IMG/VR virus record: IMGVR_UViG_3300028909_000041
Span: 1-40,443 of that record
DNA length: 40,443 nt
Origin: a virus
Strand: one strand, 5' to 3'
Numbering within the stretch: position 1 is the stretch's first letter; the number at the start of each line of letters is the position of its first letter. The notes beneath the pieces were generated by a model. That model did no database searches. It had not been told where the DNA came from and was given only the letters and a program-made list of their open reading frames with translations. Both the position numbers and the translations under genes were made by a program. Below are positions 3,328 through 38,099 of this stretch, piece after piece.

Positions 3328-3897
3328 TTATCTATTAAGTGTTTCAATCGAATCCTCAATTTGCATGAAATCTCCTAGCATTTGGGTCGCGTCGAGGGAG
3401 TGGATTTTGCAAAGCGGCTCGTCTTCGCGCATACAGCGGATTTTTGCATTTCCCTTGAAGGGGAGAAAATATCCGGTGTGCGCGCCGAACAACACGCGCT
3501 CAGCGATTTTTCTAGTTTTGCATCTTGGGCCAGCGCTGACGATAACTCCACTAGTAGGGATAGCCTTGGCGTTGTCAGGCATGATTATTGTCTGGCCAGT
3601 TCCTTTACAAGATGGGCACGTTGTTCCCCGCCGGGATTCGTAATTTCCGTTACAAATTCTGCATTCTCTGTCTATATTGCCATTGATATACCTCCCTGGT
3701 GTTCCACGACGTTCACATTCGCAACTGATATAAATTCCAGTTTCATTACAATCCTTGCATTCGTAGCCGGATTTGAACTTATCAATAAGAATAAGAATCT
3801 TATCCTCAATTGCCTCAAGCCCAAGCTTTCCAGCTACGACAAAAATAGTATTATCAAGGCTGGATGTTTCCAACTCCGGCTCCCGCCGCCCCAACAT
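3328..3897 (-). CDS. GroES-like co-chaperonin with a DnaJ-type zinc domain in its mobile loop
   Basis: 189 residues from the ATG at 3897, chosen because AAGGGAG lies 6 nt upstream; an ATG at 3924 has no such signal. A GroES fold can be followed: an N-terminal strand DKILILIDK (32-40), then IIMPDNAK (104-111, matching the GroES G-I-V/I-L-P-D-x-A-K segment), GVIVSAGP (117-124), ERVLFGAHTG (133-142) and KIRCMREDEPL (152-162), the usual V-L-F-G-x-Y-x-G and I-M-R-E-D-D-I-L signatures. Between strand and IIM, in the mobile loop, sit eight cysteines in four pairs (47/50, 59/61, 79/82, 94/97) with CKDCNETG and CPSCKGTG, like the DnaJ Cys-rich domain. The IIM tripeptide matches the GroEL-contacting IVL. 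It overlaps the preceding gene by 44 nt. Presumed partner: host GroEL. Confidence 0.82.
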   Translation of the reverse strand: MLGRREPELETSSLDNTIFVVAGKLGLEAIEDKILILIDKFKSGYECKDCNETGIYISCECERRGTPGRYINGNIDRECRICNGNYESRRGTTCPSCKGTGQTIIMPDNAKAIPTSGVIVSAGPRCKTRKIAERVLFGAHTGYFLPFKGNAKIRCMREDEPLCKIHSLDATQMLGDFMQIEDSIETLNR

Positions 3898-5107
3898 TTC
3901 CTGCTCCCTTGCTATTGTATTCATAGAATTGACGCCCTCCCTGGCTGAATGGTTTTACTATACCGATGGTATGTAGTGTTAGAATGATTCTATCTAAATC
4001 TTCCATCGTTGCGTGACGGGACATATCTCGTACAAGCTCCGCACGAGTAGCAATCCCTTTGCGCTCTAGATATGTTTGAACTTTTGCGGTCGCTTCTGAT
4101 AGTGTGCTTTCGCCGACGCCACGGAATGTAATATCGAGTGTGTCAAGCACACCCTGTACTAGAGCAATTGCTGTGAATAAACACCACCGATCTATTACAA
4201 GTTTATCGTTAGTCGCAGCCGCGAGGCACATTGCGACTTTGAATACGTGAACATCTTGGCGACTTTTGAAATGCCGTACTACATCTGAGTCTGTGTCAAT
4301 AGCCCCGAGCTTTGCATACCATTGATTAAATGTATCAATAGCATCCTGTGTGAATGTAAATTCTCCCGTAAGTTGCGATATTTCTTCAAGATCACCTCTC
4401 AAACTCTTAATAATCTCCGGCCCACCCTTCATATCCTCTAATCGAATAGGCCAAGGGAGCTTTTTGGATTTTTCATTCGCGAATACGAATACAGTACGAG
4501 CCGTGAAACCGCTATTAACAGCTTCTGCGGAATTAGTCTTGCCATTAATCTTCCGTATAAAATCCGGAACACAAGCGCCAATGAGAGAAACACACATGTC
4601 CTTGATAGCATAGCTACCTTTGTTTTTAGTCCCGTATTCAAATTTACTCCGATCCCAAGTATCGCAGAGAAAGGAGGTCATCCAATCACTGCTGCCGAGG
4701 AAGGTTGAAAGTTCTGTTGCCATTATGCAGGCGGTTGACTCTGTACTTGTAACGACATGACCGTTAACAATGGACTGAGTTTGAAATCCTGCTGCGAGTC
4801 TACTGATGATTTCTGGTGCTGTGATTCTATCTGACAAATAGTTTGAGAGTTCTGGTTTGTATTCTTTAATATAAGCATGGGCTGGATGCATGGCTGTTCC
4901 TTTTCCAACACCGGGTGGCCCAACCAATATAATATATTGATTTGGATAGACTTTGAATGTTCCACGTTGTACCCATACTTTCTTCTTAAGAACTGCACTG
5001 ACTACTGATATAGCTGACCAATAAACATAAGCATCAGGTGCTTCAGTAATCGGAGTAATCGCATTAACGTAAGACGAGATCCAATTCTGAATTAGCTTTC
5101 TGGCCAT
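3854..5107 (-). CDS. DUF3987-like replicative helicase/ATPase
   Basis: 417 residues, ATG start with AAAGGAAG upstream. Walker A GPPGVGKGT is at 63-71, preceded by the strand NQYIILV. An acidic strand ACIMATELSTFL (about 126-137) fits Walker B. A helical C-terminal region and a winged-helix-like stretch (ERKGIATRAELVRDMSRHA) follow. This matches the DUF3987/YfjI-type helicase-primase-associated ATPases often found next to phage DNA polymerases. The tail after about residue 395 (GAGNVGAAGAGVG) is low complexity and is read in another frame by the following co-chaperonin gene. It overlaps the polymerase gene upstream by 44 nt. No separate primase domain is recognised here. Confidence 0.72.
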   Translation of the reverse strand: MARKLIQNWISSYVNAITPITEAPDAYVYWSAISVVSAVLKKKVWVQRGTFKVYPNQYIILVGPPGVGKGTAMHPAHAYIKEYKPELSNYLSDRITAPEIISRLAAGFQTQSIVNGHVVTSTESTACIMATELSTFLGSSDWMTSFLCDTWDRSKFEYGTKNKGSYAIKDMCVSLIGACVPDFIRKINGKTNSAEAVNSGFTARTVFVFANEKSKKLPWPIRLEDMKGGPEIIKSLRGDLEEISQLTGEFTFTQDAIDTFNQWYAKLGAIDTDSDVVRHFKSRQDVHVFKVAMCLAAATNDKLVIDRWCLFTAIALVQGVLDTLDITFRGVGESTLSEATAKVQTYLERKGIATRAELVRDMSRHATMEDLDRIILTLHTIGIVKPFSQGGRQFYEYNSKGAGNVGAAGAGVGNIQP

Positions 5108-6605
5108 CTGATACTTCCTTTTGTTTTAGCTCTTGCAGTCTATAGAAAGCTGCTTGAACATCTCCGTAACTAATGTCATCTAGCTTCTTGGTTCCGGTAC
5201 TGCCGGACTTTAAACTAACGGATGATGCGAAATCATACCCTATCTCTCCTTCGATTGGGATGTTAATTTCAATTCCGTTGTGGAAACGAATTGTTCTATT
5301 AAATGCTTTCTTAGCTTTTTGGATATGATCCCAGACAGTGTCCACAGAGTCGTCAATCTCCTGCATAATCGAATCGTGGCATTCTTGTATAATATGACCT
5401 CTGGTTTTGTCATCTCCGGTTTCAAGTTCATAGACTGCAAATCCTGTATTATCGCCGACAACAGACTGTGGTATATAGCTAAAGGCTTCGTTGAAAATCT
5501 TATTATTACTTCCTGCTTCTCCTGCGCGGAGTCCGAAGAAGATTCGTTCGCGGAAGAAGGGAGTTCGAAGAGTTCGGTTTGCATAGAGACAGTCCTTTAT
5601 GTACTTGTGGAATACGTGCTCGACGGATGGATCGTGTTTGTTTACTTTTTCAAGAATAGCTTTGCACTGATCGGGAGTTACAGAATGCCCTTCTTTAGCA
5701 AGAGAATCAGACATAGTATTAGCACGCATACCATAGTTATTCGCGTGCCGAGTTTTCTTACCAAGGTATCGCTCGATTGAATCTTTCCATTGTTCGTCGG
5801 TATAATAATCCCACGGAAGATCAAAAATGAGACAGCCCAGTTTCCTATGACGATCCACATTATTACGTAAATCATCCAAAGCCTCCGTGTTATTCGCTAG
5901 TGCTGAAGTTGGCCAGTCCTCGGCCTGCATTTGATCTATGTTAAGGAGGATTTTTCCTGGCCTTGCAACGAGGCACCGTCTGTAAACTTTAGCAAGCTCT
6001 CCGTGTTTCGGGAAATTTTGTGCATTTCCCCCAAACCCGAACGTATGCTTTCGAGAGCCTCTACGACCTGTGACTGTTCCAGCAATGTTGTAATTTGTAA
6101 GAAAGAGGCTTTCTCCGTTCCGCACATAGAGATTTGCGTTGATATACCGCGCGCGGAGAGTTCCCAGTTCGCGTATTCGCAGAAGTGCGCGTAATGCTGG
6201 ATCGCCTCCGGGGGTTGCAAATTGATTGGTAGCGTATATCTTTTGCAAGACAAGCTCATTTAATGACTCCTTCGCTATGTAATTTCCATTTTCATCCCTC
6301 GCTGAAACTTTTGGAATTTTATACCCCATTCGTTTTAGTTGCCCAAGTGGGGTATTATTACCAGAAGAGGAGTTAAGATTAATGCTATTCCCCAGACTAA
6401 TTTCAGGTTTGTTTCCGGCACCGATGTAACAAGGTAAAGACCACACAGAACTGACAATAGCGCACTGCTTGGTAATATCAGTGTTAATATAGTCTGATGC
6501 ATCTTTAAGTCGCTCCTTGGAGACTAGAATTCCACGGCTGTCTATGCGATGATAGACACTCTGCAAAGCATGTAAATACTCACTGGTGATTTTATTTGGC
6601 TGCAA
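5064..6605 (-). CDS. Family A DNA polymerase, polymerase domain only
   Basis: 513 residues, TTG start with AAAGGA about 9 nt upstream. It covers thumb, palm and fingers of PolA and lacks the exonuclease domain, which is a separate gene at 7825-8961. Seen: T-G-R with QNFPKHGEL (180-204); motif A IDQMQAED (223-230) with metal-binding D224 and steric-gate E229; motif B/O-helix R279, K283, H287, Y291, G292; motif C HDS (410-412) with catalytic D411. The position equal to Taq F667 is His287 and the usual HDE is HDS. The thumb starts right at the N-terminus, so the split is at the exo/pol domain junction. It should synthesise phage DNA with the exonuclease as partner subunit. Confidence 0.9.
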   Translation of the reverse strand: MQPNKITSEYLHALQSVYHRIDSRGILVSKERLKDASDYINTDITKQCAIVSSVWSLPCYIGAGNKPEISLGNSINLNSSSGNNTPLGQLKRMGYKIPKVSARDENGNYIAKESLNELVLQKIYATNQFATPGGDPALRALLRIRELGTLRARYINANLYVRNGESLFLTNYNIAGTVTGRRGSRKHTFGFGGNAQNFPKHGELAKVYRRCLVARPGKILLNIDQMQAEDWPTSALANNTEALDDLRNNVDRHRKLGCLIFDLPWDYYTDEQWKDSIERYLGKKTRHANNYGMRANTMSDSLAKEGHSVTPDQCKAILEKVNKHDPSVEHVFHKYIKDCLYANRTLRTPFFRERIFFGLRAGEAGSNNKIFNEAFSYIPQSVVGDNTGFAVYELETGDDKTRGHIIQECHDSIMQEIDDSVDTVWDHIQKAKKAFNRTIRFHNGIEINIPIEGEIGYDFASSVSLKSGSTGTKKLDDISYGDVQAAFYRLQELKQKEVSDGQKANSELDLVLR

Positions 6606-6810
6606 GTTCTTGTTCCTTTACAGTATCCGTAAATACTTCGCCCGAAAAACTTTTGCAGGCATTATCATGAAAAGCATAAAGACTACACCACTCAACAGCA
6701 TAATTAATCTTTCTTTTACCACAACACTGCATTTTTGTTTTATAACAAAACCACTTAAGAAAGCGTCTTATGCGCCAGTAAATTACACTATAATACATTC
6801 GAGATAGCAT
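6592..6810 (-). CDS. Small basic Cys/aromatic-rich protein, unknown
   Basis: 72 residues. AAGGAGG lies 4-5 nt before the ATG at 6810, a strong ribosome site, and the stop overlaps the polymerase start by 14 nt, suggesting translational coupling. The N-terminal half is basic and aromatic (YYSVIYWRIRRFLKWFCYK), with Cys22, CC around 29-30 and further cysteines at about 42 and 52. The C-terminus is acidic. No family is recognised. A 10-bp RNA hairpin sits immediately before its ribosome site. Confidence 0.6.
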   Translation of the reverse strand: MLSRMYYSVIYWRIRRFLKWFCYKTKMQCCGKRKINYAVEWCSLYAFHDNACKSFSGEVFTDTVKEQELAAK

Positions 6811-6820
6811 TAAACCTCCT

Positions 6821-6844
6821 TAGAGGGGCAGAAATGCCCCTCTA
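6821..6844 (-). terminator. Perfect hairpin abutting a ribosome binding site
   Basis: TAGAGGGGCA and TGCCCCTCTA form a 10-bp stem with a 4-nt loop. On the - strand it is followed at once by AGGAGGTTTA-ATG and has no U-tract. It may be a weak terminator after the 6858-7415 gene, a processing site or a translational control element. Confidence 0.6.
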
Positions 6845-6857
6845 GTTTGATTTACTA

Positions 6858-7415
6858 TTAAGCAGCCGGGCCGGGTACGTTAGCAGCATTCGACGCGATT
6901 GGCGCTCCTAGCGTCGGAGCGAACATCGCAGTTACGGATGCGATGAAATTTGGAGTTAGTTGTGATTGTGGAATTCCGGTTTGCGCTTGCTGTAATGGGG
7001 CTGCTGGGGCGGCGTCAAAGAAACGTAGGAAATATGCGCCGTCATACGCAAAATCTACCTGATTCCCGGCAGCAGTGGCTGCGAGTGTTACTGCAGTACC
7101 TGCTACGGAAGTTGTAGTAGCCAAAGAAAGCACAGCAGTTGTGGATGTAAAGGATACGATTGTAGTTCCAGCTTGAACGCCAGAACCCGTTATACCCATA
7201 CCCACATACCAACCGGCAGTGCTGGCGATTGCTGTGAGGGCTGTGCTAGTGTTTGTGGTAGCTGTGGTTGTAAACGTCCCAGTTATTGCGATACCTGAAA
7301 ACTTAATAGGTGCTTGAATAGCTGCCCACCCAAATGCTGGGAATGTGGTAGACATTGCAGTGTTAAACTGTGCTGGCGTACAGTTGAAGATTATATTGTA
7401 AGTCTGGGCTGCCAT
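6858..7415 (-). CDS. Thr/Ala-rich beta-repeat protein, virion-like, in the replication cluster
   Basis: 185 residues, AGGAGG 7 nt before ATG. Residues about 43-115 read as a surface-type beta module (GTFTTTATTNTSTALTAIAS, then GWYVGMGITGSGVQAGTTIVSFTS, then AGTAVTLAAT), resembling the G-x-x-V-G-x-x-V-x-G-x-G-I-x-A-G-T-T-I repeats of phage structural and bacterial adhesin proteins. The C-terminus is Ala/Pro-rich. It lies between the two halves of the split DNA polymerase, an odd place for such a protein. It starts 1 nt after the upstream stop. The composition differs from its neighbours. The role is unknown: it may be a structural protein or a moron-like insertion. Confidence 0.7.
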   Translation of the reverse strand: MAAQTYNIIFNCTPAQFNTAMSTTFPAFGWAAIQAPIKFSGIAITGTFTTTATTNTSTALTAIASTAGWYVGMGITGSGVQAGTTIVSFTSTTAVLSLATTTSVAGTAVTLAATAAGNQVDFAYDGAYFLRFFDAAPAAPLQQAQTGIPQSQLTPNFIASVTAMFAPTLGAPIASNAANVPGPAA

Positions 7416-7619
7416 CTAGTATCCTCCTATGGATACGTTCTGTTTTGTGTGCTGGGTTAGTATTCTGGCGTGCTCGCAGTATTCTACGAACTTGCCATTC
7501 AATGCGTATGCGAGCTTATATGCCTCGTGATGTTCGAGGAGAAGCTCGGCGAGATTTTTAAACTGGGAGTTTATTTCCTCCGCGAGTTTTTCTTGTGTAA
7601 ATGCACTGATTTCAGCCAT
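7416..7619 (-). CDS. Small helical protein, unknown
   Basis: 67 residues from the ATG at 7619 (GAGG 6 nt upstream); an in-frame TTG four codons earlier is less likely. It is predicted helical and acidic (SAFTQEKLAEEINSQFKNLA), with His pairs near residue 30. Stop and next start are adjacent. No family recognised. Confidence 0.6.
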   Translation of the reverse strand: MAEISAFTQEKLAEEINSQFKNLAELLLEHHEAYKLAYALNGKFVEYCEHARILTQHTKQNVSIGGY

Positions 7620-7627
7620 TGTTTTCC

Positions 7628-7828
7628 TCAATATTTGTTGTTAATATCACGGAGCCAGAAGAGTTGTTTGACTGTTACATTTTCTTGGTATTCCATACCA
7701 AATATGAATTTACGCTCACTATCTGTAAATTCAATATCCATATCAAGTAATCTTGATAGTATTCTATTCTTCTCTTCTACACGCTCGTCATTTGTAAGCG
7801 TGCATTCACTAAGATCATGATAACTCAT
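7628..7828 (-). CDS. Small acidic protein ending in a WLRDI motif, unknown
   Basis: 66 residues from the ATG at 7828, which overlaps the exonuclease stop as ATGA and has AAGGGGG 6 nt upstream. It is charged and helical. The end (FTDSERKFIFGMEYQENV, then KQLFWLRDINNKY) resembles small phage proteins in which an E/D-rich helix is followed by T/K-x-K-Q-x-x-W-L-R-x-I. Function unknown. Confidence 0.65.
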   Translation of the reverse strand: MSYHDLSECTLTNDERVEEKNRILSRLLDMDIEFTDSERKFIFGMEYQENVTVKQLFWLRDINNKY

Positions 7829-8961
7829 TCCAACCCCCTTTCTTTCATTTCCTCTAGTTGTGCATAGTATATCTCTAGAGTACACATAACGTCCTTGCAA
7901 TTATATATCTTCATAGCATCCATGTTCTTAATACTCCATCCCGCGCCCTCGTCTTTCCAGTATACCTCGCGGGTATATTGTCGGGCTAGAAATTGTAACT
8001 TGTGTGGAAGCTCTGGCCATAGTTGCTGATGCTGGATCATTGTATCGCGGCATTTCTCTAGCGGGAGCCTAAATCCCAGCATCTCATAGAAATTCGCATC
8101 GAAGTTGAAAAAATTCTGGCCGAGCGATGGAACTTCCCAAAGGAGCTTGGCAAGTTTTTTCCATAGCTCGCGGGTCTCTACCGTAGACTCACGAAAGAAA
8201 TCAAAACTAATACCAAAGTCAGTCCGAGGAGCTAGACCAATTGTAATTGGATACCCTGGGAGAATTTTATAGAACTGAGATGGCTGCGTCTTTGTCGGCG
8301 CGCGTGGATAGATTGTCTCAATGTCGTTTGAGATAATCGGGTAGTTGAAAAAAGTATCCAGAATAGCAAGCAATTCGTCAAAGCATTCGAAGTGAATTTT
8401 TGGCTCGCGTTTAGGCAATGGCTGCATTGTCTTTGCGTGTGTTTTCCAATACTCCAGCTCACTGGCCGCTTTCGCGAGATCGCAGCTTATGACCACATCG
8501 CGAAGTTTCCATTGCTTTACAATATCAATCGGCTCGAATGTTGGAACTACATAATGCTCCCAATCATTCGGCCCGCTCACATTTGTTTGTTTTAATTTAA
8601 GTAACGATCCACAATACTTGGATATTTCAGAATCTCGCTCGGGGTTATATTTAGGGCCACGATACTTTGGTTCTAGTTCATGGCATACACCAGATCCTGC
8701 GACGCCCAGTGGGATTATTATAGCGGGTTTATGATGCTTCAGATAACAATGCCAATCGCCGCCTGTGGATTTTCCTACGATTGGTAGGTAACAAGTTACA
8801 TAATAGTCAGGCAGCCCGGCTTCTCGCATCATCTTATCAAAAACATACCCCATAGGGGCGCTGAATAAATAGCCTTTGTCCTCGTCTCCGGGAAGTGGCC
8901 TATTAAGCAGCACCCATACAGGGCTGTCAGGGTTTCCGTTATTTGCTATAAATTTATCCAA
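7825..8961 (-). CDS. DNA polymerase 3'-5' exonuclease subunit with UDG-like N-terminal domain
   Basis: 378 residues, TTG start with AGAGG 7 nt upstream. The N-terminal ~150 residues resemble the family 4/5 uracil-DNA glycosylase fold: PVWVLLNRPLPGDEDKGYLF, then GYVFDKMMREAGLPDYYVT (cf. G-E-A-P-G-x-x-E then G-x-x-L-x-x-x-L-x-x-A-G-L). The C-terminal part is a DEDDy exonuclease: ExoI DIE (213-215), ExoII GQNFFNFD (281-288, D288) and ExoIII YNCKD (353-357). It ends where a polymerase thumb would begin. In many phages these domains are fused as UDG-exo-pol; here the polymerase is a separate gene at 5064-6605. Glycosylase activity is doubtful; the domain may be structural. Confidence 0.85.
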   Translation of the reverse strand: MDKFIANNGNPDSPVWVLLNRPLPGDEDKGYLFSAPMGYVFDKMMREAGLPDYYVTCYLPIVGKSTGGDWHCYLKHHKPAIIIPLGVAGSGVCHELEPKYRGPKYNPERDSEISKYCGSLLKLKQTNVSGPNDWEHYVVPTFEPIDIVKQWKLRDVVISCDLAKAASELEYWKTHAKTMQPLPKREPKIHFECFDELLAILDTFFNYPIISNDIETIYPRAPTKTQPSQFYKILPGYPITIGLAPRTDFGISFDFFRESTVETRELWKKLAKLLWEVPSLGQNFFNFDANFYEMLGFRLPLEKCRDTMIQHQQLWPELPHKLQFLARQYTREVYWKDEGAGWSIKNMDAMKIYNCKDVMCTLEIYYAQLEEMKERGLE

Positions 8962-8973
8962 GATAAAGCCTCT

Positions 8974-9147
8974 TTACTTGTATGTTATGTCAAGTGCATA
9001 TGTAGCAAGGATTCGTGCTTGCGCGTGTGACGCTTCGCCAGATTCGATTATTAGTTCGAGTTGATATTTTGAGGGGAGTGGCAGTTCTCGTACTTTAGTT
9101 TTCCATTGTTGGAGTTTATCAGGCTTCCTCGACATCGGTAATTTCAT
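8974..9147 (-). CDS. Small basic protein, unknown
   Basis: 57 residues; ATG at 9147 with GGAGG 6 nt upstream. The N-terminus is basic (MSRKPDKLQQWKTKVRELPL) and is followed by a helical segment. It overlaps the upstream mini-gene by 29 nt. No family recognised. Confidence 0.55.
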   Translation of the reverse strand: MKLPMSRKPDKLQQWKTKVRELPLPSKYQLELIIESGEASHAQARILATYALDITYK

Positions 9148-9262
9148 CGTCGTCCTCCGCCTCATCTTTGTCCGAAAAATAATTTAAACAATCTTCACAG
9201 TTTTGCTCATCCGCTGCTTCTGCTTCAAACACCTCACCACACTCTTCACACTCTTTTATCAT
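9119..9262 (-). CDS. 47-residue acidic zinc-knuckle protein
   Basis: The ATG at 9262 is preceded by AAAAAGGAGAGAGT. The product starts MIKECEECGEVFEA and has a second pair CEDC at 22-25, so C5-x2-C8 and C22-x2-C25 form a likely four-cysteine zinc ribbon. The tail from residue 31 is almost wholly Asp/Glu. The strong ribosome site, and its place between a terminator and the next gene, support it. Function unknown. Confidence 0.65.
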   Translation of the reverse strand: MIKECEECGEVFEAEAADEQNCEDCLNYFSDKDEAEDDDEITDVEEA

Positions 9263-9280
9263 ACTCTCTCCTTTTTAATT

Positions 9281-9312
9281 GAAAAAGCTGGGCGGCTGTG
9301 GAAGCCCGCCCA
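9281..9312 (-). terminator. Intrinsic terminator
   Basis: On the - strand, GGGCGG (9311-9306) pairs with CCGCCC (9295-9290) across a 10-nt loop, extended by one A-T pair, and is followed by AGCTTTTTC. It lies just after the stop of the 9318-9488 gene. Confidence 0.7.
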
Positions 9313-9317
9313 CATAC

Positions 9318-9488
9318 TTAGTTCGACAAATACGGTTCGATTTCAGGATATTTTGTAAGTGCAGCGAGTAGTGTTTTTTGTCTTGCTATTTGTCTTTCCA
9401 GCTCTTTGATACTCACACGAAGTCTAGCAGCTTTTACTGTATCAAACTGTTCAACTTTATCTTCAATATTCAAATTCTTGCTTCCCAT
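9318..9488 (-). CDS. Small coiled-coil protein, unknown
   Basis: 56 residues; AAAGGAGATAAC precedes the ATG at 9488. Residues 17-45 form a heptad-like amphipathic helix (VKAARLRVSIKELERQIARQ). It follows the ssDNA-binding protein by 10 nt and is closed by a terminator, so it is the last gene of that transcript segment. No family recognised. Confidence 0.65.
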   Translation of the reverse strand: MGSKNLNIEDKVEQFDTVKAARLRVSIKELERQIARQKTLLAALTKYPEIEPYLSN

Positions 9489-9498
9489 GTTATCTCCT

Positions 9499-10002
9499 TT
9501 ACTTCCGCTTCAGCAAATCCGCGATATGTCGAATCTTCGGGAACTTGCTTGCACAATCGGGTACAGCACAAATATACCGCTCAACTTTATTCGAGTCCTT
9601 ACCGTTGTAATTATCCACAGCGATATTAACCTTACCCGAACGCCCAAGCAGCGGGCCAGCATACTTCCATGTATTAGGATCATCGGCCTTATACTTAGCC
9701 TTATCTCCATCCCATGAACCCGGAATCCAACTCTCCTTACCGTCCGTCTCCATCGGCAAGCCAAAGCAGTGCACAAAATCAGGCCATGTCCAAGCTCCGC
9801 CGGAGTTCAAAGTATCAAATACCTTGCGCCCGGCAAACTCAGGATGCCCAACAATCTCCATGCACGGATTCAGATTGAATGAATCTCCCTTTTTTGATAC
9901 CTTGACATTGAATCCAACTAGCTTAATATCATACGGGCCGGGGGGAACTACATCCAAACCTTCGAGCTTGTCGTTGCTAACTTTCATTGAAAATCCACTC
10001 AT
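9499..10002 (-). CDS. DUF669-like single-stranded DNA-binding protein
   Basis: 167 residues, GAGGG before ATG. The N-terminal half PPGPYDIKLVGFNVKVSKKGDS with NLNPCMEIVGHPEFAGRKVFDTL matches the DUF669/phage SSB-like pattern (P-G-x-Y-x-x-x-I/V with S-K-K-G, then G-R-K-V-F). A central loop is Trp/Gly/Asp-rich, and a beta segment GRSGKVNIAVDNYNGKD follows. It is encoded next to a Sak4-like recombinase and a RecB-type nuclease, the usual setting for a phage ssDNA-binding protein. It likely coats single strands during replication and recombination. Confidence 0.7.
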   Translation of the reverse strand: MSGFSMKVSNDKLEGLDVVPPGPYDIKLVGFNVKVSKKGDSFNLNPCMEIVGHPEFAGRKVFDTLNSGGAWTWPDFVHCFGLPMETDGKESWIPGSWDGDKAKYKADDPNTWKYAGPLLGRSGKVNIAVDNYNGKDSNKVERYICAVPDCASKFPKIRHIADLLKRK

Positions 10003-10075
10003 TTTTGTACCCTCGTTTTGTTTTATTTTAATTGTTTGTTCGTTTGGTAACTAGCACGGTGGTATGTGCTAAACT

Positions 10076-10152
10076 TGGTGCGCCTGCTCGGACTCGAACC
10101 GAGAGCCGACAAATTATGAGTTTGTTGCTCTTACTAATTGAGCTACAGGCGC
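10076..10152 (-). tRNA. tRNA with anticodon CAT (Met, elongator-like)
   Basis: A complete cloverleaf: acceptor GCGCCTG/CAGGCGC, T8-A9, D stem GCTC/GAGC, anticodon stem ACAAA/TTTGT with loop CTCATAA, T stem CTCGG/CCGAG with loop TTCGAGT, discriminator A and an encoded CCA. The first pair is G-C, so it is not of initiator type. An Ile tRNA with modified CAT cannot be excluded. It is the only tRNA seen and lies between the recombinase and ssDNA-binding genes. Confidence 0.95.
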
Positions 10153-10187
10153 AATAAATGGTTAAACTCGTTTTGCTACTTCTCGCG

Positions 10188-10970
10188 TCATAGGAGTGCT
10201 TTCTTATGCTTTGTGAGCATATCTGCGAGATTCGCGGGTTCCGTAGCGTCTAATCTCATTGATGTAGAAGCCATAAAATCACCACTGGGCTGCACAGTAA
10301 CAATTCGATTACCAGAATAATCAATAGTGATTCTAAAAACATCGTTAAAAAGACTAAGAAGCGAACTAAGGTACTGAGGTTGTACTGTTTTACGTCCTGT
10401 ATAAGCCTTCTGCTCTTTTGTAGAAGATTGGGCATCTTTTTCATCCATTTCGTGAAATATTGCTATTACGTTTCCAAGCTCGGATAGTCGTCCAATCAAG
10501 TATTCCATATACGCGCGATTGCCGTTTATAATATCATAGTGCGATGGGATTTTAACTATCGTCGTTCCCATCTTAACCGTGCGACTCATACTCGGATGTT
10601 GCTTTATAAGCTCATGCTCACATGCAACACGCAAGTATGTCATAGAATCCAGAATAAACCATTCTGGTATCGGCTTTCCCTGCTGCTTCAGATATTCAAA
10701 CATACTAATATCAGTTTCAAAATCACTAATAGCGTGCGGTTGCGCAGGATTCAACTCCTTGTATGTTTTAGCATCTATATCTGTACGTTTGGTTTTTGAT
10801 ATAAAAGATCGTATACTCTCCGAACGATCATCGAAATCTGCCTCGAAGATTGTTCCCGGCGCGGTCATAGCGAACCAACTTTTACCTGCTTTTGGCTCGC
10901 CTACAACAGCGATCTTAAACTTAGGCTCCGACTCCAAATCGACAAGCCCTTGGATATTTTCGTATGGCAT
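10188..10970 (-). CDS. Sak4-like RecA-fold ATPase (single-strand annealing recombinase)
   Basis: 260 residues, GAGGG before ATG. Walker A GEPKAGKS is at 24-31 and Walker B FILD at 105-108, with GNVIAIFHEMDEK downstream as the sensor-like strand. The size, single RecA-like core and the neighbours (DUF669 SSB, PD-(D/E)XK nuclease) fit the Sak4/AAA_24 group of phage recombinases. It is expected to anneal or pair DNA strands with the SSB as partner. The tRNA follows on the same strand. A general AAA ATPase role is the alternative. Confidence 0.75.
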   Translation of the reverse strand: MPYENIQGLVDLESEPKFKIAVVGEPKAGKSWFAMTAPGTIFEADFDDRSESIRSFISKTKRTDIDAKTYKELNPAQPHAISDFETDISMFEYLKQQGKPIPEWFILDSMTYLRVACEHELIKQHPSMSRTVKMGTTIVKIPSHYDIINGNRAYMEYLIGRLSELGNVIAIFHEMDEKDAQSSTKEQKAYTGRKTVQPQYLSSLLSLFNDVFRITIDYSGNRIVTVQPSGDFMASTSMRLDATEPANLADMLTKHKKALL

Positions 10971-10981
10971 TTATTTCCCTC

Positions 10982-11152
10982 TTATTTAATTGTCCATGTT
11001 ATCCGTATACCAGCATAGCCGCCAGATTTATTTACACGGTATAGAGTCGTATGCAGCCAGTACTTTTTAAACTCTAACTCACCTGGCGCGGCCTCTATTG
11101 CCGCCATTATATGCTTACACGATATTTTCGTTGGTTTGGGCAGTTTCGGCAT
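10982..11152 (-). CDS. Small basic protein, unknown
   Basis: 56 residues from the ATG at 11152 (GGAG 7 nt upstream); a TTG seven codons earlier is less likely. It is Lys/Pro-rich at the N-terminus, then helix and beta strands (KYWLHTTLYRVNKSGGYAGI), and could be a small DNA-binding protein. It overlaps the upstream gene by 38 nt and ends 11 nt before the recombinase start. Confidence 0.55.
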   Translation of the reverse strand: MPKLPKPTKISCKHIMAAIEAAPGELEFKKYWLHTTLYRVNKSGGYAGIRITWTIK

Positions 11153-11312
11153 CTTGCTTCTCCATGTTTTCAATCTTCTCTTGTTCTACTGCAATAGCTT
11201 GCTCTGTTTCAAATTCCTTATGCAGCAAGCACATATCAGAATCCGCGGTAGCAGTATTCGGACACTGACAATGGTTTTCAAGCATGAAATTACATCTTGG
11301 GCCAAGGTTCAT
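11115..11312 (-). CDS. Small zinc-binding protein with acidic helical tail
   Basis: 65 residues from the ATG at 11312 (GGAGG 6 nt upstream; the site overlaps the nuclease stop). Cysteines arranged as C-x6/7-C-x-C then C-x2-H (CNFMLENHCQC and MCLLHKEFE) suggest a zinc site. The second half is a Glu/Gln-rich helix (TEQAIAVEQEKIENMEKQ). No family recognised. Confidence 0.6.
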   Translation of the reverse strand: MNLGPRCNFMLENHCQCPNTATADSDMCLLHKEFETEQAIAVEQEKIENMEKQDAETAQTNENIV

Positions 11313-11313
11313 A

Positions 11314-12348
11314 TCAATCCTCCACATTTTCTGGGTCCCATGCGGGAGCTATTTTGAAATCACTCTTGAGTACCTGAATCATTGCATCGTTTGTATTCTG
11401 GCGATGCAAATTACGATACTGACATTCGTTATGGAACATGTTATTGCAGACGGAAGTATTCCAATCTGCGCGCTCGCCAAGGATTAGCATATCATAAATC
11501 TTATGAAATGTACGAAGCTGACGAAGACGATATTGTTCTAGCTGCCAATCTGTTTTGAATACTGGCACCCGCTTGAATCGCTGCAATGGGTCAGAGCACG
11601 GTGATATTTGCGCAAAGTTCATCCAAATACGATCAACCTTACGTTGGCCGAGTAGTTCAGGAAAGCTCTTCTTCATTATATTCTGTACCGCGAATATATA
11701 CCCAGTCATTCCTTCTTGAGGGTCGTAGGAATTTGCTGGGTTTCCTTTGAAGAATGCGGTTGTTTTGTGATCGAGCGGGCCGATAGCATTACCGGAGTCC
11801 ATTAGGAAGTCAATACGGCCTGTGAGGTAGCAGCGTACTATTGTCTTCGAGCCTAAAGTAAATTGGGGCTCAGGATTGATAAGATCAAAAGCGCCAAGCG
11901 GAACCTCCCGCTTTTTCCCAAACGAAATCTCAACTCCAATAACTCTCAGCCTATCAACTTCCGCAGCGAAATGATCCGCATACTGCGCAAGCATATTAAT
12001 AAATCCATACACGCCCCCAAGCATTTTATACATCTTATGCTCTGAGAACTGTTCGTGCATGTTGTATTCTTGCCATAGTCCGACCGCGAGCTGTAGCCAC
12101 GATGCGATCTCGAATTTATCGTCGCGTTTGGCGATGTAGAATTCTTCGATCATCTTGTGAAATAAAATCCCAAACTCAAGATTCCAACTCTTATGCAATG
12201 GCCTGATATTCGCCATCATTGAAAGTTCAAAAGATGCTTCGCAACTGCGAAAGGTTGCAAGTGCATGGTGGTCGAGGAACATCTCAATTACACCATCTTC
12301 TCCACGCTTGAACCAATGATACTTTGATACTGCTTCGCCGATATTCAT
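11314..12348 (-). CDS. PD-(D/E)XK exonuclease, RecB/Cas4-like
   Basis: 344 residues, AAGGGAAAATAAT before ATG. Nuclease motifs: H64 in GILFHKMIEEF, E140, D180 in LTGRIDF, D193-x-K195 in GPLDHKTT, and Q211 to Y217 in QEGMTGY. A lone N-terminal Cys36 in FRSCEASFEL and a C-terminal CNNMFHNECQYRNLH (C301, C309, H315) resemble the iron-sulphur staple of Cas4/AddB nucleases, with His where a Cys is usual and one ligand unclear. It is likely a 5'-3' or end-resecting exonuclease working with the Sak4-like protein and the SSB. It ends next to a small zinc protein and begins 1 nt after the DUF3310 gene. Confidence 0.78.
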   Translation of the reverse strand: MNIGEAVSKYHWFKRGEDGVIEMFLDHHALATFRSCEASFELSMMANIRPLHKSWNLEFGILFHKMIEEFYIAKRDDKFEIASWLQLAVGLWQEYNMHEQFSEHKMYKMLGGVYGFINMLAQYADHFAAEVDRLRVIGVEISFGKKREVPLGAFDLINPEPQFTLGSKTIVRCYLTGRIDFLMDSGNAIGPLDHKTTAFFKGNPANSYDPQEGMTGYIFAVQNIMKKSFPELLGQRKVDRIWMNFAQISPCSDPLQRFKRVPVFKTDWQLEQYRLRQLRTFHKIYDMLILGERADWNTSVCNNMFHNECQYRNLHRQNTNDAMIQVLKSDFKIAPAWDPENVED

Positions 12349-13962: not shown

Positions 13963-14193
13963 TCACCCGGCATCGAAGGGCGCATCAAGCCCGGCACGCT
14001 CGCCCGGTTCGTAATCGGTAATAGAAAAATCACAAATAGTACAAAGTCTATACGCAGTAAATTCTGGGTTCGCTGCTACATAATCTCTAGCATCGGAGGA
14101 GCTACGAAAAATATACAACTGCTTATCGGCGCCTGAAAATCGAATTTTAATTGAATCAAAATCTGGTTCGCATAAGGCAAACATTTTAGACAT
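13963..14193 (-). CDS. Small protein with a Cys pair, unknown
   Basis: 76 residues from the ATG at 14193 (AGGAGG 7 nt upstream). It has alternating beta and helix (FALCEPDFDSIKIRFSGADK, then a CTIC pair near residue 51). It overlaps the FtsK-type gene's stop by 8 nt. No family recognised. Confidence 0.6.
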   Translation of the reverse strand: MSKMFALCEPDFDSIKIRFSGADKQLYIFRSSSDARDYVAANPEFTAYRLCTICDFSITDYEPGERAGLDAPFDAG

Positions 14194-15307
14194 TTGGCGC
14201 CCTCCTATATGAATCTCGAATCGAGTCACAATTTATCAGCACATTAGCAATATGATCCATGCTTACAAACGGCCCATGAAATCTCGTTATCTGATCGAAG
14301 CACGGGCTTTCGACGAGCATATCTCCCTTTCCGAGCAACGACTCCGCTCCATACTCGTTAAGTATCGTGCGAGAATCTGCGCCAGTTGGTAGGCGTAGTG
14401 CGATTCTAGTTGTGAAATTTGCTTTAATGTCACCAGTGATGATCTTAACACTCGGTCTTTGCGTAGCACATATAACGTGGACTCCAACTGCTCGGCATAT
14501 TTGAGTGAGCGCCTGTAGTCTGCGGGCGATTCTTTCATAGCCAGCAACTGGTTCCAAGCCAGATTTTGCGAGGCTGTTATCTTCGCCAATAACGTCGGCG
14601 AGCTCGTCGATAATAACGACGTAATACGGGAGCGACGTTGGAGAGATTGCATTGTATTCATGAAGGTTTCGTGCTACCCCTTTCATTTTCTCTGTACGCT
14701 GACGAACGATTGCCATTAAGCGCGTGAATAATGCGTGCACTTTCTCCACATTATCCGCGACCTCCACGACATGTGGGAGGTCTGCGAATAATGTGAGGTC
14801 GAGCTGCTTGGTATCGACGAGCATTAGTTTGAGTTCGTGCTTACTGCGGCTTGCAGCCAGAGCACTAATGATGGCGGAAAGTAATACCGATTTACCTGCT
14901 CCAGTGCTGCCCGCGATAAGAATGTGGGGTGACTCGGTAAGGTCGATATGTGCTGCATTACCTTTTGTGTCAACGCCAAGCATAATCGGCAACTTACAAA
15001 TAGTATCTTGCATAAGAGTATGCAAGCAAACATCATAAGAAACGACATCTCTGCGCGTATTCGGTATCGCAATCGCAATTGAAGCCCCCTTTCGTGTTAT
15101 TAGTACGCTCGGTGCTCCGACGGCGAGTGCGAGATCTTCTTCGGCACGCATAATCTTAGCAATCGGAACAGCAGCACCGAGACGCATGTAATATGTGGTG
15201 ACTATTGGCCCCGCCTCAGCGCTCTCGAACGATGCGTTAATACGCAGCGCAGAGAGCTTGAGTGCGAGTTGTGAGAATACAGTTGCTTGTTCTTGAGTTA
15301 GTGGCAC
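14186..15307 (-). CDS. FtsK/SpoIIIE-type DNA translocase, soluble
   Basis: 373 residues, GTG start with AGGAG 5 nt upstream. The N-terminal ~110 residues match the FtsK alpha domain (GPIVTTYYMRL, ALAVGAPSVLI, IAIAIPNTRRDVV). The motor has Walker A AGSTGAGKSV (132-141), Walker B YVVIIDEL (229-236), the ATQRPS motif (281-286) and LLGKGDML (324-331). Membrane segments and the C-terminal DNA-reading winged helix of chromosomal FtsK are absent. The family pumps double-stranded DNA. In a phage already encoding a terminase motor, its job is unclear: DNA segregation, concatemer handling, or a role linked to the adjacent VWA and J-domain proteins. Confidence 0.9.
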   Translation of the reverse strand: MPLTQEQATVFSQLALKLSALRINASFESAEAGPIVTTYYMRLGAAVPIAKIMRAEEDLALAVGAPSVLITRKGASIAIAIPNTRRDVVSYDVCLHTLMQDTICKLPIMLGVDTKGNAAHIDLTESPHILIAGSTGAGKSVLLSAIISALAASRSKHELKLMLVDTKQLDLTLFADLPHVVEVADNVEKVHALFTRLMAIVRQRTEKMKGVARNLHEYNAISPTSLPYYVVIIDELADVIGEDNSLAKSGLEPVAGYERIARRLQALTQICRAVGVHVICATQRPSVKIITGDIKANFTTRIALRLPTGADSRTILNEYGAESLLGKGDMLVESPCFDQITRFHGPFVSMDHIANVLINCDSIRDSYRRAPNV

Positions 15308-15520: not shown

Positions 15521-16201
15521 TTACCTCCCCTGTAGCTTATCTGCGAAACTCTTGTCCGCAAGCATATATCGAAGCCCCGGGCTAAGATATTTAAACGCTG
15601 TACGAAAATTAGACTTCCCGCGCTCAAAACACAGATATATTCCACCTGTGTCGCGAGCGAGTTTTTCCATAAATTCAGCGGCGCGTTCTTGTTTATATCC
15701 GTCACTGATATATACAGTATCAACTGGAATCTTTTTGCTTTTAATTGAGTCATATTCCAGTTCGCTATAGCTCTGCGGACAACCATCGCTGAATACGATT
15801 GCTCGCGTTAAGCTATTTTTCTTCAGCATCTCTCCGAGCTTCTGCACAAGCGGCGTACCGCCGGTTGCACAAATACTCTTAACCATAATCGCCAAGGCGG
15901 GGAGATTGGTGCAAAGCAGCATCGGAGCAGCATTCATCGGATATATAGCTACAGCGGTTTTATTCTGCTCGCAGGAGCGAAGAAATTCCTCGCAGCCCTC
16001 GTGTGCGTCCTCGCTCTGTGCGCGTCCCATAGAACCAGAATCATCGAATACTATCCCGATTCTATGCTCCATCTGCGCGGGCTTTAGTTCCTCTCGGATT
16101 CCTAGTTCTACTGCAAGCTGTGCTTTTCGTGCGGCCAGCCCAGTTAGAATCCGCCCTTGGCTATTGACTATAGGCTTCTGCCTTACTGCAAGGTCTGACA
16201 T
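15521..16201 (-). CDS. Von Willebrand factor A domain protein
   Basis: 226 residues, GGAGG 7 nt before ATG. A complete metal-ion-dependent adhesion site is visible: D-x-S-x-S at 53-57 (IGIVFDDSGSM), threonine in ATGGTP (T116) and D139 in IVFSDG. The length is a bare VWA domain with a short N-terminal lead. In bacteria, VWA proteins often pair with AAA ATPases as metal-dependent binding subunits; here the neighbour is an FtsK-type motor, with one small gene between. Binding partner unknown. Confidence 0.85.
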   Translation of the reverse strand: MSDLAVRQKPIVNSQGRILTGLAARKAQLAVELGIREELKPAQMEHRIGIVFDDSGSMGRAQSEDAHEGCEEFLRSCEQNKTAVAIYPMNAAPMLLCTNLPALAIMVKSICATGGTPLVQKLGEMLKKNSLTRAIVFSDGCPQSYSELEYDSIKSKKIPVDTVYISDGYKQERAAEFMEKLARDTGGIYLCFERGKSNFRTAFKYLSPGLRYMLADKSFADKLQGR

Positions 16202-16550: not shown

Positions 16551-16841
16551 TTACCACTCCCTTTCTTGTCGTTCATGAATTCCCTTAACGTAGCCATATT
16601 GTGCTTTGGTTATTCCACGACATTTATTCTTGCAGAGCTTGTTATATAAATCAAGCTCCTCGGTATTCAGTAGATTCACAGACAGCGTCCCGAGCATCGC
16701 ATACGCGGATTGCTCTTTATAATACCGCTTCCATTGCTTTAGTGCGAATTCCGTCGCGCCCTCGTGCTGCTCGAATAGCGTGCGAGTGCCACGGAATTCT
16801 ACAGCCCAGTATTTTTGGATTTTATGTAGTTTTAGTTTCAA
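16551..16841 (-). CDS. Small charged protein, unknown
   Basis: 96 residues, TTG start inside TTGA overlapping the J-domain gene's stop, with GGAGG 6 nt upstream. The second half SVNLLNTEELDLYNKLC then TKAQYGYVKGIHERQ has the pattern of small phage proteins ending in T-x-x-Q-x-x-x-V/L-K-x-I-x-x-R. Function unknown. Confidence 0.65.
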   Translation of the reverse strand: MKLKLHKIQKYWAVEFRGTRTLFEQHEGATEFALKQWKRYYKEQSAYAMLGTLSVNLLNTEELDLYNKLCKNKCRGITKAQYGYVKGIHERQEREW

Positions 16842-17686
16842 TTCGACCCTCCTGAATTATAAATTGTCCACACACGATTGAGCTCGGACATTTTCGCGCT
16901 ATCGCCACCAAAATCTGGGTGATATTTCCGCGCTGCTTCTCGATATTTCTTCTTCAGTGCTACAAGCTCCATGCTTGCTATGTCTTCGTGGATTCCGAGC
17001 AGAGCCGCAAGCTGGGTTAGAATTGATTCCTTAGTCTCCGCCTTCGGTGCTACGGGCTTGTGATAGAAGTTCTCCGCATAATCCTTTGGTACGTTTACGC
17101 CTTGCGCTCCTGCGGACGGCTGCATTACTTTAATATCGAACTGTGAGACTTCGAGAATCTGCTTCAGTGCGGGCCAGTATTCGATGGCGATCTGCCATTT
17201 GAATGTCGATGGATCATATTCTCGCGCGGTTGCTGGGATTGCACTTTTGAGAATATCAATCATCGGTTGGATATTATCCTTGAACCATCCGCGCTGTGGG
17301 CACGTTATGAAATGCAGCTCTACGATGGTATCGTTGTATAAATATGTTATTCGGACTCGTTTGGGCATAGTTGGTCTCGTTGTACCGGATGGATTATATA
17401 CTTGTTGAACTTGTTGTGGCCAAGATTTTCCAGTTCGTCTTGGGGCACTAACTATAAATTTAGTTGCGCCTAGCGGCACTCGTGACGCACAGTATGCTTG
17501 GGCTTGTGCTGGAGTTATAACAGGCAATAAAAATAATTGTCTTTCTGTGTACTTTTTACCCATATCCTCGCAAAAGTTCCAATTACATTGGTAATGCCAA
17601 CTTATCTCACCAAGTGCGAGAAACGCGCTCATATTCATACCACATCGCGGGCATTTTGCGGGCATTCCATTACTCAGATACGCCAT
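16838..17686 (-). CDS. J-domain protein with N-terminal zinc ribbon
   Basis: 282 residues, TGGAGG 9 nt before ATG. Zinc-ribbon cysteines 12, 15, 34 and 39 (CPRCG and CNWNFC) open the protein. A middle region (about 108-185: VRITYLYNDTIVEL, then REYDPSTFKWQIAIEYWPAL) resembles the D-P-x-T-x-x-W segments seen in HARP-like and helicase-accessory domains. The C-terminal 226-277 is a J-domain with the HPD motif at 256-258 in ARKYHPDFGGD. J-domains stimulate Hsp70 (DnaK) ATPase. The protein lacks the DnaJ Cys-rich and substrate domains, whose zinc module appears instead in the phage's co-chaperonin. It likely recruits host DnaK to a phage complex. Confidence 0.82.
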   Translation of the reverse strand: MAYLSNGMPAKCPRCGMNMSAFLALGEISWHYQCNWNFCEDMGKKYTERQLFLLPVITPAQAQAYCASRVPLGATKFIVSAPRRTGKSWPQQVQQVYNPSGTTRPTMPKRVRITYLYNDTIVELHFITCPQRGWFKDNIQPMIDILKSAIPATAREYDPSTFKWQIAIEYWPALKQILEVSQFDIKVMQPSAGAQGVNVPKDYAENFYHKPVAPKAETKESILTQLAALLGIHEDIASMELVALKKKYREAARKYHPDFGGDSAKMSELNRVWTIYNSGGSN

Positions 17687-36617: not shown

Positions 36618-37391
36618 ATGGCGTATCCATATACAATACAGGATTTGCTCTGCGGGATTGGCGCGAGTCCTAGTGCTCCGACTGGTGGCGTTTGGGCGAA
36701 GCTGTCACAGCGTGCGGATGTGTTTACGCTCGGAGTGCAGTGGGTTGCGGACGCGGTGCTTGAGTTGAGCCAGAATTATCCATTTCAGGGACTTCAACGT
36801 ACTACGGCAGCACCAGTGCAAATGACGACCGGAGTATACCAATATCCATTTAGTACATGGGTGAATGCTGGTGATATTCCAGCATTTGGTACCACGGCGA
36901 ATCCGAAGCTCATCCCAAGCTTTTTTATGTTTTATAACAATCCATTGAATACAACACAGGGATATAATCCTGGTATTGGATTGATGTATAAGACTATTGA
37001 TTCGCTTGAGCTTATGTTCAGCACTCCGGGTACGCCTGCATATTGGACGCGATTTAATAACCAAGTATTTATCGCACCACAACCCACTAATGCGTATTGG
37101 TCATATATGCGGTATCAGATACAGCATCCGTTCTCGAATCCTCCAGTGCTGGCAGATGAGATATTCTTAGATGATGACTGGCGGGAGATTATTGAATATG
37201 CAGCGGCATTACGAGGGGCGGGTGATCTGCGAATGTTGGACTATTCAACACAGTATCATAACATACTTTATGGCGACCCTAAAAAACCTGCGGATGTCGG
37301 TTTGCTCACTGCCCGTGCCTCGACTATGGAAAACGATATAGTATCAAATCAAGGAATGCGACAAATTCGGCCACTAATGAGGAGATGGTAA
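36618..37391 (+). CDS. Head-tail adaptor-like protein (tail tubular A type)
   Basis: 257 residues, AGGAGAGTAA before ATG. An N-terminal helix bundle (GVQWVADAVLELSQNYPFQG) precedes a beta insertion. Then a C-terminal helix pair (LADEIFLDDDWREIIEYAAA, then LRMLDYSTQYHNILYGDPKK) with D-D-W and Y-x-x-x-L-x-G-D-P. These match podoviral adaptors (T7 gp11 type) that join portal and nozzle. It lies just after the nozzle-like gene, an order often seen reversed in T7. Confidence 0.65.
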   Translation: MAYPYTIQDLLCGIGASPSAPTGGVWAKLSQRADVFTLGVQWVADAVLELSQNYPFQGLQRTTAAPVQMTTGVYQYPFSTWVNAGDIPAFGTTANPKLIPSFFMFYNNPLNTTQGYNPGIGLMYKTIDSLELMFSTPGTPAYWTRFNNQVFIAPQPTNAYWSYMRYQIQHPFSNPPVLADEIFLDDDWREIIEYAAALRGAGDLRMLDYSTQYHNILYGDPKKPADVGLLTARASTMENDIVSNQGMRQIRPLMRRW

Positions 37392-38099
37392 ATGGCTACA
37401 CAAGCGACTGTTCCTACAGCAACGGCAGCGTCCGCAACTCCTATTGCTGCTACTATTCCTACTGCGGCTATTCCAGGCACAGCGACCGCGAATGCTCAGA
37501 CTGCGGCTAATCCATTTGCTCCAGCGGCTGCGGCTGTTCCGACTGGCGCAGCTCCCACTACCGCCGGAGTCGTAGCGCCAAGTACCGCGCAGACTAATGG
37601 GATTAATTGGGCGGATGGCTCGAATACTGTGACCGGAGATTTTAAGGACACATACGGCTCAGGTACTGGAACGGCTATTACTAGTGTGCTTCAGAATCTT
37701 GGTACCGCGACCGATAGTGCGGTACAGGCTACGATTGCGAATACAAATCTGGAGGCCGGTGAGCAGGCTGCGAATATCACATCTGGAGAAGCGGCTAGTG
37801 GCGTGACTGCAAATTCTAGTACGGCAGCGCTGGCCCAAGGCGATTTCTATTCTGGTGTGAATAGCAATCTGCAATCTACAGTCGCGAATATGGAGTTGGG
37901 CGAGGAGAATACGCTGCTTGGCGCGCTGACGAATGAGGGTTCTGCGCATGGCTCGGATTCTAGTTTTCTTGGAACGCTCGGAGATGTGCTAGGCGGTGGT
38001 ATCGTTGGCGACGCTATTAGTTCTGGCGCTAATGCTATTAACAGCACAGGAGCTTCTGGAACCGGGACATTTAGTGAGATTTTGAGCGCGCTAGGATAG
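37392..38099 (+). CDS. Ala/Thr-rich ejection-type protein
   Basis: 235 residues, GAGG upstream; starts directly after the previous stop. Residues 1-75 are Ala/Thr/Pro low complexity. Then helices with repeated Ala/Ser/Asn (QATIANTNLEAGEQAANITS, ALAQGDFYSGVNSNLQSTVA), and a Gly-rich end with LGDVLGGGIVGDAISSGANA that could insert in membranes. It is probably one of the internal virion proteins released into the cell with the DNA. Inferred from composition and place. Confidence 0.65.
   Translation: MATQATVPTATAASATPIAATIPTAAIPGTATANAQTAANPFAPAAAAVPTGAAPTTAGVVAPSTAQTNGINWADGSNTVTGDFKDTYGSGTGTAITSVLQNLGTATDSAVQATIANTNLEAGEQAANITSGEAASGVTANSSTAALAQGDFYSGVNSNLQSTVANMELGEENTLLGALTNEGSAHGSDSSFLGTLGDVLGGGIVGDAISSGANAINSTGASGTGTFSEILSALG

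Follow-up and report, generated by a model that had tools for sequence, protein, structure and literature searches.

Bacteriophage RB43 encodes a functional J protein, Rki, together with two small proteins that carry a DnaJ zinc domain, and a concerted action on the DnaK machine has been suggested (PMC3486835). In the RB43 record, Rki corresponds to ORF057w (37137-37850) and lies 12 kb from gene 31 (49567-49911), which encodes the gp31 co-chaperonin. DnaJ-type CxxCxGxG motifs also occur in the central domain of the DNA polymerase of HMO-2011-type phages (PMC9038755), and moraphages carry both DnaJ and DnaK (PMC12619734). We analyzed the virus record IMGVR_UViG_3300028909_000041 from IMG/VR at its full length of 40,443 nucleotides (hereafter, the window), which carries a gene for a J-domain protein at 16838-17686 and one for a GroES-like co-chaperonin at 3328-3924, both on the minus strand. 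The original prediction had called such a pairing unusual. This was too strong, since RB43 has Rki, gene 31, and separate DnaJ-zinc proteins, and DnaJ modules on separate phage proteins alongside a co-chaperonin therefore already have a precedent. What is new here is the core of the J protein, a probable HARP-like module that is followed by a C-terminal J domain; the gene lies within a replication operon. In the open-licence literature, we found no description of this architecture, nor of a phage co-chaperonin with a zinc insert in its mobile loop.

The J-domain protein consists of 282 amino acids (ATG start), with a variable N-terminal region bearing a putative zinc ribbon, the HARP-like core, and the J domain at residues 218-278 (16853-17035, minus strand). 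The Pfam DnaJ profile matched residues 229-270 with an E value of 7.5e-5 and 23.2 bits, below the cut-off of 27.8 bits. The family profile matched solved J domains with E values of 2e-10 for Sis1 and 7e-7 for DnaJ and SV40 large T antigen, ranging to 1e-6. AlphaFold placed helices at residues 219-230, 241-255, and 263-277, which corresponds to the J-domain helical fold, and Sis1 and the model shared 39-42% identity within the aligned part. The HPD motif (residues 256-258; 16913-16921, minus strand) sits between helices II and III and was unchanged in 21 relatives with identity down to about 24%; an all-frame search of the window revealed no other J-like HPD. The chain stops 24 residues past the HPD, where helix III ends. 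No CxxCxG motif was found in the J protein by the all-frame search, and the G/F region, the four-CxxCxGxG zinc domain, and the C-terminal substrate domains of a class A DnaJ (Hsp40) are absent. As originally predicted, 16838-17686 encodes a real J-domain protein of the Hsp40 superfamily with an HPD at 256-258 and without the four-motif DnaJ cysteine domain; binding to an Hsp70 and stimulation of its ATPase are predicted for it. The protein is best explained as a class C phage J-domain protein.

The top match of the J protein among PDB folds was the J domain of murine polyomavirus T antigen (Z 8.1, root-mean-square deviation 2.5 over 65 residues). Polyomavirus large T antigen is likewise a viral J-domain protein and acts in viral DNA replication, but its J domain is N-terminal and its helicase and DNA-binding parts are unrelated. 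Rki resembles the window protein as a phage J protein whose genome also has a gp31 co-chaperonin and separate DnaJ-zinc-domain proteins. However, Rki belongs to a T4-like phage of another clade, and its J domain is N-terminal with no HARP-like module described, whereas that of the window protein is C-terminal. A different, mobile-element J protein (L077, 6553-7029) has an N-terminal J domain followed by a small C-terminal domain with the motif GYKWxxKKxxWYF, which matches phrog_15863 and phrog_13942; this is possibly an analogous J-plus-small-domain design.

Apart from the J domain, the conserved portion of the protein is residues ~108-190, a core that the earlier description of the protein had missed. 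AlphaFold predicted this core (17117-17365, minus strand) as strand-strand-helix-strand-strand-helix-strand, and K147, P151, R155, P159, and W164 are invariant among the nearer relatives. Pfam HARP (PF07443) matched the core stretch in the J protein of one relative (L057) with an E value of 9.5e-5, and a genome-level scan with HARP hit this part of the J gene in several records, including the window. Furthermore, the core profile matched the HARP structure of SMARCAL1 (4o66) with an E value of 0.027, and the N-terminal domain of archaeal XPB aligned with the core (Z 5.7, root-mean-square deviation 2.1 over 52 residues). The structure 4o66 was not among the VIA-align matches listed in the fold search, which carries no weight either way. 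Kelch-repeat matches to the core profile were set aside as due to one repeated 11-residue motif.

Because these lines, each weak alone, combine, the core is probably, not certainly, a HARP-like module with a DNA-binding fold of the SMARCAL1/XPB type. Several points weigh against this assignment and what we build on it below. The HARP matches stayed below the Pfam cut-off (25 bits) in every record, the signal was detected in only 6 of 26 records, and in the fold comparison, unrelated alpha/beta folds score equally well against the core, at Z 6-7. The HARP relationship is accordingly supported, not proven. The likeness to the SMARCAL1 HARP and XPB N-terminal domains is a weak but repeated resemblance in both sequence and fold; HARP-type domains there are carried by SNF2/XPB helicases, whereas the module in the window accompanies a J domain, with no motor. 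SMARCAL1 acts at forks, and its annealing activity is dictated by its HARP domains (PMC3409536).

The N-terminal zinc ribbon that the original prediction assigned to the J protein stood only in part. The pattern C12-x2-C15-x18-C34-x4-C39 (residues 12-39; 17570-17653, minus strand) makes a zinc ribbon plausible and is kept in close relatives, but the region is variable and the pattern is missing from several others. Two further J proteins (L061, 336-1502; L062, 4140-5306) have a long N-terminal extension with several CxxC pairs, so that zinc fingers were gained more than once.

The second gene encodes a 198-residue protein. Its start was moved from 3897 to 3924, because the MNT start at the latter position is kept in relatives. 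The family profile matched Cpn10 chains with E values of 6e-12 (Cpn20) and 1e-6 to 4e-7 (GroES). Relatives exceeded the Pfam Cpn10 cut-off and the window copy alone fell below it; the top fold match of the model was T4 gp31, with Cpn10 among the top folds. By profile and model, the product of 3328-3924 is a Cpn10 (GroES-like) protein, and it is predicted to form a heptamer that caps GroEL. It differs from T4 gp31 and GroES in an added putative zinc insert, with four to eight cysteines across the relatives, before the GroEL-binding segment. In the window, the insert comprises residues 56-110 (3595-3759, minus strand) with eight cysteines. Profile alignment to solved Cpn10 chains showed that it ends just before the GroEL-binding segment of the mobile loop, where I-I-M-P (residues 113-116; 3577-3588, minus strand) aligns with the start of the segment (I/L)(I/V)(I/L)P that contacts GroEL. 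The hydrophobic-P at this segment is conserved in most relatives.

The earlier assignment of a DnaJ cysteine domain to this gene was right as to an eight-cysteine insert, but the insert is degenerate in the window, with three CxxC and one CxC, and is canonical in the relatives L102 and L103. It matched the DnaJ zinc domain 1exk with an E value of 0.0015, and the best Pfam DnaJ_CXXCXGXG match among GroES-like proteins was 8e-6, in relatives; all matches were under the cut-off wherever tested, and some relatives have only four cysteines. These similarities suggest that the insert resembles the DnaJ zinc domain. In the all-frame search of the window, two CxxCxG motifs within one frame occurred only in the GroES-like frame. 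Chance occurrence of the HPD or of the cysteines was rejected on the profile E values and this single-frame occurrence. The zinc proteins of RB43 are small free open reading frames, whereas the insert here lies within the co-chaperonin. HMO-2011-type phages are similar in that DnaJ-type motifs have moved onto another phage protein, but the carrier is the polymerase and no J-domain partner is described there.

The relation between the two genes was examined in relatives gathered from IMG/VR, among which 50 whole records were searched with the profiles of both families. Both genes were present in 19 records, on the same strand with the J gene upstream, and 11.1-14.9 kb apart (median 13.2 kb; two of the 19 distances were measured across record ends). 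A twentieth pair, about 12.9 kb apart, lies on a contig binned with a metagenome-assembled genome of Sulfuriferula; as the sole such contig with the pair, and given how phage contigs are binned, it is weak evidence for Sulfuriferula as the host. Thus, all 20 IMG/VR or genome contigs spanning both places have both genes, and the single-gene records of the clade stop short of the expected place of the partner. Gene-by-gene inspection of the borderline records showed that G030 and G003 end inside a polymerase gene, G039 ends inside the VWA gene adjoining the J gene, and G033 begins inside the FtsK-like gene. The co-occurrence check thus did not refute the original prediction, random singletons not being seen within the clade. 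However, in a gene-by-record matrix, about 25 genes were retained throughout the clade, and the J and GroES-like genes are just two of them, alongside the primase-helicase, both polymerase genes, and the Sak4-like, exonuclease, FtsK-like, VWA, terminase, portal, and capsid genes. For this reason, we rejected the view that co-occurrence proves the two to be functionally linked, and it is attributed to shared descent until shown otherwise. No cultured relative was found: neither protein had a full-length tblastn match among 50,697 phage records, and the terminase reached only 21-28% identity with those of podophages of filamentous cyanobacteria and of ANMV-1.

Being a core gene also bears on a reading modeled on Rki, in which the J domain sequesters or diverts host DnaK and the HARP-like part only localizes or oligomerizes the protein. 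Such a hijack or decoy would serve to raise heat-shock proteins, to block a harmful DnaK function, or to evade a phage-sensing defence based on DnaJ/DnaK. Deletion of Rki impairs RB43 and the defect is suppressed by loss of host dnaK (PMC3486835), and phage sensing by bNACHT25 requires host DnaJ (PMC12169576). The Rki family is marked by an N-terminal J domain and DnaK-dependent toxicity, however, whereas the J domain of the window protein is C-terminal behind the HARP-like module, and accessory genes for takeover or anti-defence are less typically core genes whose synteny stays fixed across deep divergence. We consider this reading unlikely.

In a sister lineage, the two genes appear separated. 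In all 11 loci examined, its GroES-like gene lies directly upstream of the terminase gene, with the portal and capsid genes coming next on the pieces that extend far enough. Members include L154 (802-1416, in record G046) as well as L096, L100-L104, L107, L109, and L112-L114. The 49.3-kb record G046 has relatives of the terminase (44%), portal (31%), and capsid (52%) proteins, and its replication block is largely unrelated. No J domain was found in G046 or in seven other sister-lineage records searched, most of which are short, so that this result rests mainly on G046, a record of uncertain completeness. Eight cysteines in four CxxC pairs are present in the sister-lineage proteins L096, L101, L102, L103, L112, and L113, whereas the J-carrying records G018, G022, G031, G032, and G044 have a four-cysteine insert (one zinc site). 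Judged from these sequences, the cysteine insert and the J protein are decoupled. Since the GroES-like gene stands beside the terminase gene in a lineage in which the searches detected no J domain, the co-chaperonin follows the virion module, as would be expected of a protein that folds capsids in the manner of gp31. The J gene was seen only with the replication module.

The original prediction had proposed that a phage substrate is passed between DnaK and GroEL. In the corresponding relay, the J protein would bring a client protein of the phage to DnaK, and the co-chaperonin with its zinc insert would deliver this client to GroEL; jointly, the two phage proteins would stand in for a split DnaJ. 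Such a hand-over is consistent with the presence of both genes, on one strand and in the same order, in all 20 records, with the DnaJ-type cysteines on the co-chaperonin, and with the comparable set in RB43, for which the authors proposed concerted action (PMC3486835). Against it, the genes are 11-15 kb apart and ordinary core genes, the full cysteine insert occurs in the sister lineage where no J domain was found, and several genomes with a J gene have an insert with just one zinc site. The position of the insert in the GroEL-contact loop also accounts for it without DnaK, and the J protein belongs to a replication operon and has a HARP-like module. The hand-over is thus unsupported, and we regard the relay as very improbable.

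In the J-carrying records examined, the J gene is in a same-strand operon with the primase-helicase, polymerase, Sak4-like, exonuclease, and FtsK-like genes. The replication block of the window (3854-12348, minus strand, as are all genes below) lies between the J and GroES-like genes and contains a primase-helicase (3854-5107), a family A polymerase in two genes (5064-6605 and 7825-8961), a Sak4-like gene (10188-10970), and an exonuclease (11314-12348). The core neighbors of the J gene encode an FtsK/SpoIIIE-like ATPase (14186-15307) and a VWA-domain-like protein (15521-16201). A small gene (16551-16841), conserved in the five closest records only, overlaps with its start the last 4 bases of the J gene, and translational coupling of the two is probable. 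The polymerase is split into an exonuclease part and a polymerase part with small genes between them, an arrangement kept across the clade; in HMO-2011-type phages, the DnaJ zinc domain is located at the same polymerase boundary. One of the intervening genes (6858-7415) encodes a low-complexity, Ala/Thr-rich protein of 185 amino acids and occurs in the four closest records only.

DnaK systems help the assembly of some viruses, and the FtsK-like ATPase beside the J gene is a motor-type protein. The J protein might accordingly be a DnaK adaptor specific for virion assembly or the terminase, expressed early and acting late. The sister lineage, however, has the terminase, portal, and capsid genes, yet no J protein was found there, which makes this role highly unlikely.

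No Hsp70 or Cpn60 gene was found in the 16 records searched, so that host DnaK and GroEL would serve. This supports the earlier view of two adaptors, one a probable partner of DnaK and the other of GroEL. Based on the HARP-like evidence and the replication operon context, the best-supported mechanism for the J protein is that of a DnaK adaptor tethered to DNA or the replisome. The HARP-like module, often aided by the zinc ribbon, would anchor the J protein to DNA or to the replication complex of the phage, where the C-terminal J domain would recruit host DnaK and trigger ATP hydrolysis, and DnaK would remodel a protein of that complex. Host DnaJ at the lambda origin and the J domain in polyomavirus T antigen are the analogues for this model. 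The GroES-like protein would be a separate, gp31-like cap for host GroEL, in which the zinc insert may stiffen or retarget the mobile loop, most likely for folding of the major capsid protein. We tentatively prefer this account of a tethered DnaK adaptor and an independent GroEL cap, at slightly less than even confidence. Location in an early operon is no proof of a replication role, and T4-type phages also scatter host-takeover genes in early operons. A more specific form, in which a fusion of a HARP-type fork-DNA-binding domain with a J domain brings host DnaK to phage forks while the co-chaperonin with its zinc loop adapts host GroEL to the needs of the capsid, appears rather doubtful.

If that more specific form is true, the two proteins together would allow one small phage to take over both main chaperone systems of its host. 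Rki is the one well-studied case of a phage J-domain protein so far, and a core-gene J protein with a HARP-like module near replication genes provides a testable model of how a phage may aim DnaK at a chosen place. Likewise, a DnaJ-type zinc insert at the very point where GroES and GroEL meet would amount to an experiment of nature on the mobile loop.
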